A stretch of 64,000 bases of DNA from Chloroherpetonaceae bacterium (lineage in GTDB: Bacteria; Bacteroidota; Chlorobiia; Chlorobiales; Thermochlorobacteraceae). This document shows positions 42,563 to 47,866 of the stretch, piece after piece (the stretch's first letter is position 1; the number at the start of each line of letters is the position of its first letter). Location of the stretch: the NCBI GenBank assembly GCA_033763895.1, contig JANRJQ010000011.1, forward strand, positions 62,001-126,000, written 5' to 3'. The notes beneath the pieces were generated by a model that worked only from the letters and a program-made list of their open reading frames with translations, was not told the origin of the DNA and did not search any database. The translations under genes and the position numbers were made by a program.

Positions 42563-45500
42563 ATGTCGAAACTCCTCATCCAAACCTATTACAAAAATCT
42601 TGAAAGAGTTCGTCATTTCGGGAAAACCACCAATGAAACCAGTATCCGAAATCATTTTTGGAATCTCCTGAATGGATACGCACAAAAAAGCAATTTCGAA
42701 GTAATTCCAGAAGCCGCATGTTTGGGCACAAAAGGCAAGCAAGTTCGCCCCGACGGCATCCTCAAAAACTCATTCGGAATCGATATCGGTCTTTGGGAAA
42801 GCAAGGACGAGAAGGACGATATCGATGCTGAAATCGAGGTGAAACGGCAAAAAGGCTACCCCTTCTCAAATATTCTCTTCGAAGATTCATCGACGGCGAT
42901 TCTCTTTCAATACCAAGAAGAGGTGATGCGCATTGATATTAGCAATGAAACAAAACTTGATGAATTACTAACGCGATTTATCACCTTCAAAAATGAAACC
43001 ATCGAGCAATTTGAAACCGCGCTTGAAAATTTCAAAGCCGATATTCCCGCAATTGTTGAAGCCCTGCGCGAAAAAATAGAATCAGCACGCCGACATAATG
43101 AACCCTTCCTTAAGGCAGGGCAAGAATTCCTTGTACTTTGTCAAGCAGAAATTAACCCCGATATCACCGAAGCGGATATCCGTGAAATGATGATTCAGCA
43201 CATTCTTACGAGCGATATCTTCAACAAAATTTTTGACGATGCCGATTTCCATCGACATAACAACATCGCCCGTGAACTCGAAAAGCTCATCGAACTCCTT
43301 TTTTCTCGCACTGAACGCAAAAACCTTCTCACGCAAATTGAGCATTATTACGATGCCATCAACGCCGCCGCTGCCGGCATTTCAGATCATCATGAAAAGC
43401 AGAAATTCTTAAAGGTGCTTTATGAGAATTTCTACAAAGTCTATAACCCGAAGGCTGCCGATAAGCTTGGTGTGGTTTACACCCCAAACGAAATTGTGAA
43501 ATTTATGATCGAAAGCACCGACGCGTTGCTCTTTCAACACTTCGGAAAAACTCTCTCAGATCGTGATGTCGAAATTTTAGACCCCGCAACAGGTACAGGG
43601 ACTTTCATTACCGCGCTGATTGACCATATTCCGCTCCGCGATTTAGAGTATAAATACAAGCACGAAATCCACGCCAATGAAGTCGCGATTCTTCCTTATT
43701 ACATCGCCAACCTCAATATCGAATTCACCTACAAACAGCGAACAGGTCGTTACGAAGAATTCAATAATTTATGTTTTGTCGATACGCTCGATAACATTGG
43801 GGCTTTGAGCTATGAAGGAAATAAACAGCAAAATAATTTATTCGCGTTAAGCAGCGAAAACTCAGAGCGGATAAAACGGCAGAACAGTAAAAAGATTTCG
43901 GTAGTGATTGGTAACCCACCCTACAATGCCAATCAATTAAATGAAAATGACAACAATAAGAATCGTGAATACCCCTTTATTGATAAAGAAATTAAAGAGA
44001 CATTTATTAAACAGAGCACAGCACAAAAAACCAAAGTGTACGATATGTACGCAAGGTTTTACCGTTGGGCTATGAATAGGATTACCTCGAAAGGTGTAAT
44101 TGCCTTTATCACGAATCGCAGTTTTATCGATAGCCGAACATTCGATGGGTTTCGGAAATGTGTACAGAACGACTTTGCCGAGTGTTACATCATTGATACA
44201 AAGAGCGATGTTCGAGCTAACCCTAAAATAGCCGGAACAACACATAATGTTTTCGGAATCCAAACCGGCGTGGCCATTATGTTTTTGGTTCGCAAAGACA
44301 AGCAATCCGGCAATTGCAAAATTTATTATGTCGCTTTGGATGACTTCTGGCGAAAAGAAGAAAAATTAGATTGGCTACGCCAAAATAAATTTGAGAAAAT
44401 TCAGTTTGAAACGGTTTCTCCCGATAAAAACGGCAATTGGATAAACCTCGCCGATACCGATTTCGACACGCTCTTGCCTCTTGCCGATAAAAACACCAAA
44501 CTCGCTAAAGAAAAAAAGCAAGAAAAAGCCGTCTTTAAACTCTTTTCGCTTGGCGTGGTAACGAACCGCGACGAATGGGTGTATGATTTTGATGATAAAG
44601 ATCTAGAAAAAAAAGTGAAGTTCTTTTGCGAGTTTTATGAAAAAGAAAAAGCACGTTGGGAGCGCTCCAACAAAAAACTACCACTCAACGACTTTGTGGA
44701 TAGAACAATCAAGTGGACAGAAGAACTTGAAGCGCATCTTGAAAGGGGCTCTGAATTACACTTAGATAAGAAAATGATTCGGGAATCGCTTTACCGCCCA
44801 TTTGTTAAGCAATTCACTTACTACGATAGAATCATCACGCATCGTTTATATCAGAATAACGTGATTTTCCCAATTGGAAGGAGAGAGGATAACAAGGTTA
44901 TTTGTATATCAGGTACAGCAAGTTCAAAACCATTTTCATGTATTGCCTCACAAACATTAAGCGGTCTTGATTTATTAGAAAAAACACAATGTCTTCCTCT
45001 CTATCGTTACACCGAAAGCGGCGAGCGGGTTGATAACATTACGGATTGGGGGTTGGCACAATTTCGGGCGCATTATGAACCCTCTCCCCAGCCCTCTCCC
45101 TCCGGGAGAGGGAGTAAGAGCGGAAGCATTTCAAGTCCTCTCCCTTTGGGAGAGGATTTAGGAGAGGGCAAAAAGAGGAAGTTGCCCGAAAATCTACTCC
45201 AAACAGCAAGAGAACTTCGCAAAAATGCAACCGATGCCGAAAAACTTATGTGGTCGTTGCTAAGGAATCGGCAACTGAATGGATATAAATTTCGCCGACA
45301 GCACCCATTTGGACGTTTTATCCTAGACTTCTACTGTCACGAGTCAAAACTGTGCGTTGAACTCGATGGCGGGCAACATGCCGAGAAAAATCAGGCCGAG
45401 TACGATGCCGCAAGAACTGAAGTGCTGAACCAAAATGGGATTCGAGTGATTCGATTTTGGAATAACGAAGTATTCACGAATACCGAAGGTGTATTGATGA

Positions 45501-46222
45501 ACATAATTGAGCACTTGGAAAAAAGTCCAATTATTACTAGTCCTCTCCTGAGTGAAGATGATTCAAGAAGCGTAAGCAATCCAAGTCCTCTCCCTCTGGG
45601 AGAGGATTTAGGAGAGGGCAAATTCAGGAGTAGCGACAAAGTCTCAAGTGAAATTCCTTCTAAAGAGGATTTAGGAGAGGGCAAAACAATCACCAAAGAA
45701 GCCATCTTTCACTACACCTACGCTGTCTTACATCATCCCGCTTACCGAAAGAAATACGAACTGAACTTAAAGCGCGAGTTTCCGCGCTTGCCATTTTATG
45801 AAGACTTTTGGAAATGGGAGAATTGGGGAAAAACCTTAATGGAACTCCATATAAATTTTGAAACCGCTCCTTCATTTGGCCTTAAACGAATGGAAGTAAA
45901 AAGTGATGATGCTTCCAAAAAGCAAAAGCCCAAATTAAAGGTCGATAAAGAGCGAGGTTGGATCATCATCGATGATGAAACCACCCTAACCGGAGTTCCA
46001 AAAGAAGCGTGGGAGTATAAATTGGGGAATCGCAGCGCGCTTGAATGGATTTGCGACCAATACAAAGAATCAACCCCAAAAGATAAAACCATTGCAGAAA
46101 AATTCAATACCTATCAATTTGCAACGTATAAAGAAAAGGTCATCGATTTGTTGCAGCGTGTTACAACCGTAAGTGTAGAAACAATGAAGATTGTTCAAGG
46201 AATGCCTTCTTCGGCAGAGTAA
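42563..46222 (+). CDS. type ISP/IIG-like restriction-methylation enzyme with inserted DUF559 nuclease
   Basis: A single-chain restriction-methylation protein of 1219 residues. N-terminal PD-(D/E)xK-like nuclease: VRPDGIL (D64) and LWESK (E79-K81). A helical connector (~140-300) follows, then the N6-adenine methyltransferase with motif I DPATGTGTF (~340-348) and motif IV GNPPYNAN (~450), then a target-recognition region. There is no helicase, unlike LlaGI-type ISP enzymes. The expected junction between ITDWGLAQFRAHY and ITKEAIFHYTYAVLHHPAYR is split by ~200 residues (~840-1040). That insert contains a DUF559 endonuclease domain (~874-986, RRQHPFGRFILDF and CVELDGGQH) between repeat-encoded Pro/Gly linkers. 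Whether the enzyme still works is unknown. Confidence 0.88.
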   Translation: MSKLLIQTYYKNLERVRHFGKTTNETSIRNHFWNLLNGYAQKSNFEVIPEAACLGTKGKQVRPDGILKNSFGIDIGLWESKDEKDDIDAEIEVKRQKGYPFSNILFEDSSTAILFQYQEEVMRIDISNETKLDELLTRFITFKNETIEQFETALENFKADIPAIVEALREKIESARRHNEPFLKAGQEFLVLCQAEINPDITEADIREMMIQHILTSDIFNKIFDDADFHRHNNIARELEKLIELLFSRTERKNLLTQIEHYYDAINAAAAGISDHHEKQKFLKVLYENFYKVYNPKAADKLGVVYTPNEIVKFMIESTDALLFQHFGKTLSDRDVEILDPATGTGTFITALIDHIPLRDLEYKYKHEIHANEVAILPYYIANLNIEFTYKQRTGRYEEFNNLCFVDTLDNIGALSYEGNKQQNNLFALSSENSERIKRQNSKKISVVIGNPPYNANQLNENDNNKNREYPFIDKEIKETFIKQSTAQKTKVYDMYARFYRWAMNRITSKGVIAFITNRSFIDSRTFDGFRKCVQNDFAECYIIDTKSDVRANPKIAGTTHNVFGIQTGVAIMFLVRKDKQSGNCKIYYVALDDFWRKEEKLDWLRQNKFEKIQFETVSPDKNGNWINLADTDFDTLLPLADKNTKLAKEKKQEKAVFKLFSLGVVTNRDEWVYDFDDKDLEKKVKFFCEFYEKEKARWERSNKKLPLNDFVDRTIKWTEELEAHLERGSELHLDKKMIRESLYRPFVKQFTYYDRIITHRLYQNNVIFPIGRREDNKVICISGTASSKPFSCIASQTLSGLDLLEKTQCLPLYRYTESGERVDNITDWGLAQFRAHYEPSPQPSPSGRGSKSGSISSPLPLGEDLGEGKKRKLPENLLQTARELRKNATDAEKLMWSLLRNRQLNGYKFRRQHPFGRFILDFYCHESKLCVELDGGQHAEKNQAEYDAARTEVLNQNGIRVIRFWNNEVFTNTEGVLMNIIEHLEKSPIITSPLLSEDDSRSVSNPSPLPLGEDLGEGKFRSSDKVSSEIPSKEDLGEGKTITKEAIFHYTYAVLHHPAYRKKYELNLKREFPRLPFYEDFWKWENWGKTLMELHINFETAPSFGLKRMEVKSDDASKKQKPKLKVDKERGWIIIDDETTLTGVPKEAWEYKLGNRSALEWICDQYKESTPKDKTIAEKFNTYQFATYKEKVIDLLQRVTTVSVETMKIVQGMPSSAE
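45080..45113 (+). repeat. palindromic repeat unit 1
   Basis: Contains the perfect hairpin CCCTCTCCC-TCC-GGGAGAGGG (45092-45112) preceded by CCCTCTCCCCAG. It is in inverted orientation relative to units 2-4 and is translated as PSPQPSPSGRG. Confidence 0.9.
45137..45169 (+). repeat. palindromic repeat unit 2
   Basis: CCTCTCCC-TTT-GGGAGAGG followed by ATTTAGGAGAGGGC; translated as PLPLGEDLGEG. It is nearly identical to unit 3, with one base changed in the loop. Confidence 0.92.
45587..45619 (+). repeat. palindromic repeat unit 3
   Basis: CCTCTCCC-TCT-GGGAGAGG followed by ATTTAGGAGAGGGC, lying just after the DUF559 domain. It encodes the same PLPLGEDLGEG peptide in the same frame as unit 2. Confidence 0.92.
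45665..45682 (+). repeat. partial repeat unit 4 (right end)
   Basis: GAGGATTTAGGAGAGGGC matches the right half of units 2 and 3. Its left half is degenerate (CCTTCTAAA). It forms the right boundary with host coding sequence and encodes EDLGEG. Confidence 0.85.
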
Positions 46223-46250: not shown

Positions 46251-47291
46251 ATGATTAAAAGTATTTCAGTTAAAGGGTACAAAACTCTTCACGATTGCAA
46301 ACTGACTTTAGGGAAAAGAAATATCCTTATTGGCGGGAATATGAGCGGAAAATCAAATATAATCGAGATACTTCAATTGGTTGGGAAGTATTTTATACAT
46401 CCCACATATATTATGGAAGATGCATCATTAATTGCTAGAAGTACTTCAAGGAATAATTCGGAAATATCAATTCTTCTAGAATCAGAATTTGATAGTATCA
46501 ATACAAGTCTAAACTTGCAATGGGATATTAATTATCAACAAAATAACAAAAATGAACCTGTCAAATTGGAAGCATATCAGTATGATTCTGTTACTAAGGC
46601 TGTAATAAGAGAATTATTTTATGGGTATTTTAAGCCATTATATTCTCCGATTTTATGCTACAAGGATATCCATACAAATTCACAATCCCCAATTCGTCAG
46701 CCACAAAGTGCCGCACCATTTAAATACCTAAATAATGTTGGAAGTAATTTAGCTAACATTTTACTGAAGTATTTTAATGACGATTCCTTTCGAAGTGAAT
46801 TAAAAAAAATCATGAAAGCAGTAAACCCGGATTTTATGAATATTTATGTTGATCAAGTGGTTGGTAACTTTATCAACATTACTTGGAAGGAAAAGAATTT
46901 GGAGAGAGACTTATACGCAAGCGACCTTTCCGATGGCACACTTCGGCTGCTTTGTTTGTGTGCAATTTTACTGCCCAATTCCATTGTTGAGCCTCCAAAA
47001 CTCATTTGTATCGATGAACCTGAATTGGGGTTATATCCAAGAAGAGTATTACCCATTCTTGCAGAAATGATAAAGAATAAGTCGGAAGAAAGCCAAGTCA
47101 TTATCACCACTCATTCACCGGAACTTCTGAATTATTTTGACTTGGAAGATGTGGTAGCTTTAGAAAGGGAAGATGGAAAAACAAAGTTTATTCGCCCGTC
47201 CGATAAAAAAGAACTGGAGCAATTGCTAAAAAGCTATGAGTATTCGTTATCCGATTTATGGCTGACGGGTAAATTTGAAGAAAAAAGTTAA
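46251..47291 (+). CDS. RecF/OLD-like AAA ATPase
   Basis: A 346-residue SMC/ABC-like ATPase. Walker A is GGNMSGKSNIIE (~28-39) right after the opening strand MIKSISVKGYKTL. The signature-like SDGTLRLLCLCAILL lies near 225, Walker B is LICIDEPELGLYPRR (~250), and TTHSPELLNYF is the H-loop. The layout matches the AAA_15/AAA_21 ATPases of OLD, RloA and PARIS-type defence systems, but no TOPRIM domain is fused. The next gene, 20 bp downstream, could supply one. The sequence is clearly AT-richer than the flanking priA and clpC, supporting acquisition by transfer. Function in defence is inference. Confidence 0.85.
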   Translation: MIKSISVKGYKTLHDCKLTLGKRNILIGGNMSGKSNIIEILQLVGKYFIHPTYIMEDASLIARSTSRNNSEISILLESEFDSINTSLNLQWDINYQQNNKNEPVKLEAYQYDSVTKAVIRELFYGYFKPLYSPILCYKDIHTNSQSPIRQPQSAAPFKYLNNVGSNLANILLKYFNDDSFRSELKKIMKAVNPDFMNIYVDQVVGNFINITWKEKNLERDLYASDLSDGTLRLLCLCAILLPNSIVEPPKLICIDEPELGLYPRRVLPILAEMIKNKSEESQVIITTHSPELLNYFDLEDVVALEREDGKTKFIRPSDKKELEQLLKSYEYSLSDLWLTGKFEEKS

Positions 47292-47311: not shown

Positions 47312-47866
47312 ATGAAAATTAATCTCCTTTTCGAAGGAATTTCAGATAAAGAATCTTTTGAGGTTCTTTTAAAGGAAGAAATTCAAACTCTGAAAACGAA
47401 AAAATTTGAAGTCAACGCCAACGACTATGGTGGAAGAAAAAGAGGGTTTACGAGAATACTTCCAAAAGAGATAAAATCGTCGTTTGAAGTTTATTCTGCA
47501 GATTATGTATTTGTTCATATTGATTCCGAAGAGGATAGTAAAGAACAAATGAACGAAAACATTGAGAAAATGAAAAGGTCAATACCAGTAGATTTCCATA
47601 ATAGAGTTTTTTGGATAGTGATTCGGAAAAATCTTGAAAGCGTACTCTTGGCAGGCTGTTTAGAAAAGGAGAGAAACTTTGAAGAAATTCAGAAACCAAA
47701 GAAAGCAATAAGGGGAATTTTTGGCATGAAGTTAAAAAAGGGTTATATCGAAACCATTGATGCAAAAGAATATATATCACAAGTGAGTAAGGAAAGAATT
47801 CTAAGCAGAATCTCGGGTGTGAAAGATTTTCAACAAGGGTTGAATCAAATAAGCGAATTCGGTTGA
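47312..47866 (+). CDS. small TOPRIM/DUF4276-like partner protein
   Basis: A 184-residue protein. It starts with a beta-strand and an acidic residue in INLLFEGISDKESFEVLLKEE, similar to the xxxVEGxTE opening of DUF4276/TOPRIM-like proteins. YVFVHIDSEEDSKEQ then provides the expected D-x-E/D acidic cluster after the third strand, and a basic helical C-terminus follows. The family call is tentative. It is 20 bp downstream of the ATPase gene, a pairing like AriA-AriB or RloA-RloB, and ends at a strong terminator. Nuclease activity would be the natural hypothesis but cannot be proven here. Confidence 0.5.
   Translation: MKINLLFEGISDKESFEVLLKEEIQTLKTKKFEVNANDYGGRKRGFTRILPKEIKSSFEVYSADYVFVHIDSEEDSKEQMNENIEKMKRSIPVDFHNRVFWIVIRKNLESVLLAGCLEKERNFEEIQKPKKAIRGIFGMKLKKGYIETIDAKEYISQVSKERILSRISGVKDFQQGLNQISEFG

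Follow-up and report, generated by a model that had tools for sequence, protein, structure and literature searches.

A DUF559 nuclease cassette with BoxC/PIT/TM-type hairpin ends, inserted in frame into a type IIG restriction-methylation gene, as a probable mobile element

Repeats of the BoxC/PIT/TM type have been known in Escherichia coli since the 1990s. A 2015 study described them in more than 260 genomes, with TTA and CCG second loops and in inverted pairs; no mobility gene was found near these triplex repeats and their mode of spread was left open (PMC4666352). In this work we analyse a cassette in which repeats of this motif enclose a DUF559 nuclease domain. It lies in a 64,000-nt stretch of DNA from a Chloroherpetonaceae bacterium (GenBank assembly GCA_033763895.1, contig JANRJQ010000011.1, positions 62,001 to 126,000; hereafter the window), in frame within a gene for a restriction-methylation enzyme. 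We regard the cassette as probably a homing-like, REPtron-like selfish mobile element, constituted by a DUF559 nuclease between BoxC/PIT/TM triplex-hairpin ends. This reading is based on the anatomy of the cassette, its in-frame insertion, the different states of its sites, nuclease lineages that track the sites, movement at one site, selection on the nuclease and the linkage between nuclease and repeats. The DUF559 protein of E. coli, YcjD, was placed with Vsr among the PD-(D/E)XK nucleases in 2005 (PMC1189080), and a DUF559 gene has already been assigned to the EDxHD homing endonucleases in one paper (PMC9403480).

Several described systems share features with the cassette. The EDxHD homing endonucleases (type I-Bth0305I) are alike in fold and in their sporadic, site-tracking and horizontally moving behaviour. 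However, the cassette involves no intron or intein, being unspliced and in frame within the host protein, and it differs further in its own triplex-hairpin ends, its repeat-only derivatives and the fact that no co-conversion was seen. BoxC/PIT/TM repeats have the same anatomy as the cassette units (C-rich arm, loop, G-rich arm, 3-5 nt and a third block that is the mirror of an arm) and also form inverted pairs. Those described in E. coli are intergenic and have no associated mobility gene (PMC4666352), whereas the cassette repeats terminate an element that encodes a nuclease, and they are found inside genes as well. RAYT/REP systems (REPtrons and REPINs) likewise combine an enzyme gene between inverted hairpins with many gene-less pairs per genome, but their enzyme is a Y1 HUH transposase while that of the cassette is a nuclease of PD-(D/E)XK fold, and the GTAG/CGTC tag carried by REPs (PMC3733652) has the triplex third block in its position in the cassette units. 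Rickettsia palindromic elements (RPE) and intragenic REPs are also in-frame palindromes in unrelated protein genes (PMC3733652); they encode no nuclease and are unrelated in sequence, whereas the cassette carries a whole nuclease domain in frame. The ShiLan insertion in a phage methylase is in frame, unspliced, homing-like and situated in a DNA methylase, but it carries an HNH endonuclease, of a nuclease family different from DUF559, whose reading frame is not that of the host (PMC11855218). It has been described chiefly from phages, some prokaryotes having relatives of it, and its abstract contains no mention of triplex-repeat ends. A peptide scan of viral contigs revealed no DUF559 relative of the window copy.

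An earlier note on this DNA, made from the letters alone, had proposed that the host protein is interrupted in frame before ITKEAIFHYTY by a unit containing an entire DUF559 domain, and this proved correct. The host gene is a 1219-codon open reading frame (ORF) (42563-46222, + strand) uninterrupted by stops, cassette included, and 204 residues (612 nt, a multiple of 3) separate ITDWGLAQFRAHY from ITKEAIFHYTY. The cassette itself (45077-45688, + strand; 204 codons) replaces a loop of about four residues of the empty site. Its left terminal unit (45080-45113, - strand) is inverted with respect to the others: the third block CCTCTCCC (45080-45088) stands upstream, followed by a spacer of 3-4 nt and the hairpin CCCTCTCCC-TCC-GGGAGAGGG (45092-45113). 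In the remaining units the third block is downstream. The second unit (45137-45168, + strand) is composed of the hairpin CCTCTCCC-TTT-GGGAGAGG (45137-45155), ATTTA and the mirror third block GGAGAGGG (45161-45168), and the right terminal unit (45587-45618, + strand) of the hairpin CCTCTCCC-TCT-GGGAGAGG (45587-45605), ATTTA and GGAGAGGG (45611-45618). Four palindromic units, one of them inverted, had been claimed; the inversion was confirmed, but only three hairpins are complete, the fourth unit (45663-45682, + strand) being a remnant with a partial G-rich arm, ATTTA and a third block (45674-45681), and with the C-rich arm missing. The exact pattern CCTCTCCC-N2-10-GGGAGAGG has three sites in the whole 3.55-Mb genome, all of them in the cassette, while the reversed pattern used as a control gave 0 matches; therefore, the cassette repeats are not due to chance. 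Copies of this exact hairpin elsewhere in the genome, which the note had suggested looking for, were thus not found. The same genome has a second, standalone DUF559 copy (L002, G000:C2:11906-12223) with a one-sided palindrome, CCCTCTCC-TTGCAA-GGAGAGGG, nested in a larger inverted repeat, CCTCACCCTG...CAGGGTGAGG.

The nuclease domain (PF04480; 45194-45517, + strand; aa 878-985) is recognised by Pfam with an E value of 1.4e-39 and a score of 134.8 bits (cut-off, 20.6), and the family-invariant E, DF, ExDGxxH, D and R residues are all intact. In an AlphaFold2 model the domain is folded (model residues 856-967), while the repeat-encoded stretches 821-854 and 970-1019 are at pLDDT below 50. The closest solved folds are, in this order, 3HRL, a Neisseria DUF559-like protein, and I-Bth0305I (3R3P; model pLDDT 83, E 5.5e-4, prob 1.00, TM 0.81 by target), Vsr being a weaker match. 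The catalytic domain is thus predicted to have the EDxHD/I-Bth0305I homing endonuclease fold. Pfam detected in the cassette neither a splicing domain, the ends being repeat-encoded, low-confidence linkers rather than those of an intein, nor a transposase such as would define a classical transposon or insertion sequence. DUF559 is the sole domain between the window repeats, where a REPtron would have a Y1 HUH transposase. Since nothing in the cassette would splice it out, the host protein would include the nuclease as an additional domain, attached by disordered linkers that the repeats encode.

The earlier note had not recognised that the repeats correspond to an established motif, that of the BoxC/PIT/TM triplex repeats. 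When the third block is modelled as mirroring the arm, z is 11.5 over 143 units, with at least 6/7 positions matching in 106 of them; a direct-repeat model gives a poorer fit (z 7.4) and was discarded. Because the third block mirrors the arm, the units are assigned to the BoxC/PIT/TM intrastrand-triplex motif, and those of the window have its three consecutive purine/pyrimidine blocks. As in the published repeats (PMC4666352), second loops of TTA or CCG occur, and units form inverted pairs. Hairpin folding was computed, and the units may form triplexes, as the motif suggests.

Cassettes of this kind are found in many other genes. Our survey sample comprised 394 genomes of the phylum Bacteroidota, and counts are based on species-level genomes, many of them metagenome assemblies; several filled genes sit in single-contig genomes, such as G103, G198 and G029. 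DUF559 is present in 221 of the 394, frequently within ORFs of 800-1480 aa. Forty such loci were read and contain in-frame cassettes, mostly with CCCTCTCC-type ends and in no case with a second domain accompanying DUF559. The hosts identified by NCBIfam/Pfam are leuS (at two sites), metH, recG, icmF, hsdR, hsdM, an Eco57I-type IIG gene, UvrD-like helicases, hemF and an M23 peptidase, and valS (L220) and hsdS (L087, and L298 and L301) were assigned by sequence. Insertion in a defence enzyme, which the note had stressed, is therefore true of the type IIG host in the window, but many hosts elsewhere are housekeeping genes. Empty and filled sites can be compared directly. The recG query matches 120 of the 121 genomes of one genus; six of the 120 are filled at one exact codon junction and most are uninterrupted, while four have short in-frame remnants, one of which (L192) is a clear repeat unit. 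The identical recG codon is also filled in G289, of the same genus, and in G103 and G198, of other genera. Among 78 metH genes compared within one family, 6 are filled, 2 are repeat-only or remnant sites and about 58 are empty.

With respect to the window gene, about 78 homologues of the host were compared and most have a short empty loop at the exact insertion point, so that the uninterrupted empty site sought for this gene exists, as it does for recG and metH. DUF559 occurs at the identical point in L003 (Prolixibacteraceae), L066 (Gammaproteobacteria) and L143 (another ISP_C protein). The note had held that DUF559 at the same place in distant genera, as an ancestral domain, would speak against a mobile unit; the shared position is real but does not read as an ancestral domain, since the L003 and L066 nucleases fall in separate lineages of the DUF559 tree, each with its own repeats, and the intervening homologues are empty. 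These observations argue for repeated insertion. The window nuclease groups with neither of the two, its placement in the tree being unresolved. The same loop holds repeat-like inserts minus the nuclease in L042, L050, L051, L055 and L006; a DUF559 gene is present elsewhere in the genome in 5/5 of these cases, and the L050 loop repeat matches the repeat beside that genome's own DUF559 gene. In L066 about 10 tandem PSPAGGG-encoding units, all in frame, precede the nuclease (L066:8525-8945), an array produced by local amplification of the repeat.

The hairpins also accompany DUF559 genes that stand alone. A GC-rich perfect hairpin lies within 150 nt of 35 of 39 standalone DUF559 genes and on both sides of 21, whereas random anchors in the same loci are flanked on both sides in 1 of 2902 cases. 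Hairpins number 5.2 per kb close to the gene, compared with 0.1-0.2 per kb at distances over 600 nt. In a sample of the class Gammaproteobacteria, hairpins are found at 27/29 DUF559 genes (both sides, 16/29), with densities of 6.6 versus 0.23 per kb. The repeats belong to the DUF559 nuclease, and the linkage spans phyla. DUF559 ORFs flanked at both ends by repeats of this kind, for which the note had advised a search, thus occur in other genomes, and together with the empty sites and the repeat-only derivatives they support its idea of a mobile DUF559 unit travelling with its own palindromes, comparable to homing or RAYT/REP systems. That the repeats are instead moved by RAYT/Y1 or another transposase, with DUF559 as a passenger, seems to us scarcely probable at all. 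Some Y1_Tnp gene is present in 19 of 23 repeat-rich genomes and the repeat pairs resemble REPINs; however, the Y1 genes of repeat-rich genomes have hairpins on both sides in 0/8 cases and on one side in 1/8, G365 is rich in repeats and has DUF559 but lacks Y1, the Y1 matches of G275 and G219 are no more than weak, and the in-gene cassettes read contain DUF559 as sole domain. RAYT as the driver is not supported by these data. Three further genomes (G058, G073 and G001) carry many CC(Y4)CC..GG(R4)GG hairpins and neither DUF559 nor a Y1 transposase; either these have a different driver or the nuclease was lost.

Genome G275 combines a single DUF559 gene with 95 copies of the same hairpin. The copies listed form 21 inverted pairs of constant polarity, of which one encloses the DUF559 gene and 20 are gene-less, and the terminal sequence of the gene-bearing pair is identical to that of the gene-less ones. 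By analogy with RAYT/REPINs, this arrangement can be understood as an element with its derivatives. It also bears on a different explanation, according to which BoxC/PIT hairpins spread by other means and served as landing pads, DUF559 entering existing repeats by cutting or by inter-repeat recombination and riding along. Inserts made up of repeats alone in this type IIG/ISP loop (L055, L042, L050 and others), the persistence of repeats in genomes without DUF559 and the attraction that fragile repeats would exert on recombination all agree with such a sequence of events. However, the exact hairpin of the window genome is confined to the cassette, the recG and metH sites are mostly plain empty and without repeats, and the gene-bearing copy of G275 shares polarity and identical ends with the gene-less copies, which is what one would expect of an element and its derivatives. 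We therefore consider landing pads unlikely.

In E. coli, the DUF559 gene ycjD adjoins a BoxC-type repeat, and this repeat is present in 5377 of 5426 E. coli genomes, with a median of 19 sites in each. In the sapF-fabI region, the K-12-like L331 has ycjD and the BoxC repeat, while L332 and L333 have an efflux operon. Since this operon occupies the place of ycjD, no clean strain-level empty site was found among the E. coli strains examined. In related Azospirillum plasmids the DUF559 gene is in 7/7 replicons, hence there is no empty site there. In the open-licence literature searched we found no paper linking DUF559 to palindromes or triplex repeats.

The clearest case of movement is that of recG. 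In comparisons of three species belonging to one genus, identity is 98.9-99.3% for the recG cassette and 92.4-95.6% for the flanking recG, and the change in identity at the cassette edges is sharp. Third-position differences number 2/151 in the cassette versus 63/366 in the flanks (p 2e-8), and 2/151 versus 76/366 in a second comparison (p 2e-10). The filled taxa are scattered over the recG host tree, forcing at least 4 changes, and the recG-cassette nucleases form a single clade (support 100/94). Since the cassette is younger than its flanks, its carriers are scattered and its nucleases are one clade, it has moved horizontally between species at this fixed site. In a DUF559 tree of 108 columns, whose deep branches are weak, clades track the insertion site; the M23 peptidase insertion is nested in the metH clade, which indicates that jumps to new sites also happen.

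The nuclease is under purifying selection: where it could be measured, pairwise omega is mostly 0.07-0.2, and the catalytic residues of the family are invariant in 48 in-gene copies, from which it can be deduced that the enzyme has been kept working. Such selection, the tracking of sites by nuclease clades and the existence of deletion scars could also be expected of an ancient domain insertion, vertically inherited and frequently lost, in which the nuclease serves the host protein. This alternative is nevertheless quite improbable, because the recG cassette is younger than its flanks, the filled taxa are scattered, standalone copies are flanked by the same repeats, and the hosts are unrelated (tRNA synthetase, methionine synthase, helicases, hemF), with no common function for a nuclease to serve. 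The ancestral-domain reading was therefore set aside as unsupported.

As a selfish mobile element, the cassette would enter gene loops in frame. Its nuclease might then cut the uninvaded target site, or nick its own hairpin ends, and repair would copy the cassette in. Repeat-only, REPIN-like derivatives could spread in trans, or stay as in-frame scars after loss of the nuclease. Several observations weigh against this reading. Cutting of the target or of the repeat ends, mobilisation and the repair route are steps that we infer. At recG there is no co-conversion tract at the cassette edges, such as simple homing through double-strand breaks should leave, nor the target-site duplication that the earlier note had suggested looking for; comparison of empty and filled sites shows 6 nt replaced by the cassette. 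Because both co-conversion and target-site duplications are absent, the data establish neither simple homing nor simple transposition. The orientation of the third block is variable in standalone copies (23 outer, 31 inner). An excess of such hairpins is more frequent in genomes with a strong DUF559 match (50/158) than in the others (16/236; p 1e-10), but this correlation is uncorrected for phylogeny, and 16 of the 66 genomes with excess repeats have no strong DUF559 match. Finally, the repeats persist in E. coli strains without ycjD, and in this species the motif is on only one side of the gene.

DUF559 (YcjD) nucleases and BoxC/PIT/TM repeats might, with roughly even chances, constitute one class of mobile elements across bacterial phyla, moving by nuclease action at triplex-forming ends, making REPIN-like families in trans and entering essential genes as unspliced in-frame domains. 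If so, the class would be of a kind not yet described. The DUF559 nuclease, ycjD in the case of E. coli, is a candidate engine for the spread of BoxC/PIT/TM repeats. The persistence of a nuclease unspliced inside essential proteins indicates an unusual route for selfish DNA. Through such cassettes, tRNA synthetases, methionine synthase and helicases would acquire large domain insertions naturally; the cassettes would also account for odd DUF559 fusions and for proline-rich PSP..GRG/LGEG peptides in such bacterial proteins.

The window host is, from Pfam, PADLOC and phmmer, a DrdV-like single-chain type IIG/IIL restriction-methylation enzyme. With the insert removed, the protein aligns by phmmer to PDB 7LO5, which we take to be DrdV, over residues 1-840, resuming at 842 (E=0), and its length of about 1015 aa is that of DrdV. 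It is type IIG according to PADLOC. Its Pfam matches are to the ISP coupler, methylase and Type_ISP_C specificity domains, the cassette being located within the last of these, near profile position 180. The host had been described as type ISP-like. The coupler, methylase and specificity domains are indeed common to both types, but the Pfam scan detected in the host protein no helicase domain, the ATPase typical of type ISP enzymes, and DrdV is the nearest relative; a classical type ISP identity was discarded. In L048 (Nitrosomonadaceae, without DUF559) the same loop is filled by another repeat, encoding IPAQAGIQ...LDSRLRGNDG peptides, so the type IIG/ISP loop seems to accept further repeat families as well. 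Downstream of the host gene, an AAA_21 ATPase (46251-47291), whose best PADLOC match is HEC-01A, and a small protein (47312-47866) with a weak HEC-01B match form a possible two-gene defence system adjoining the restriction gene.

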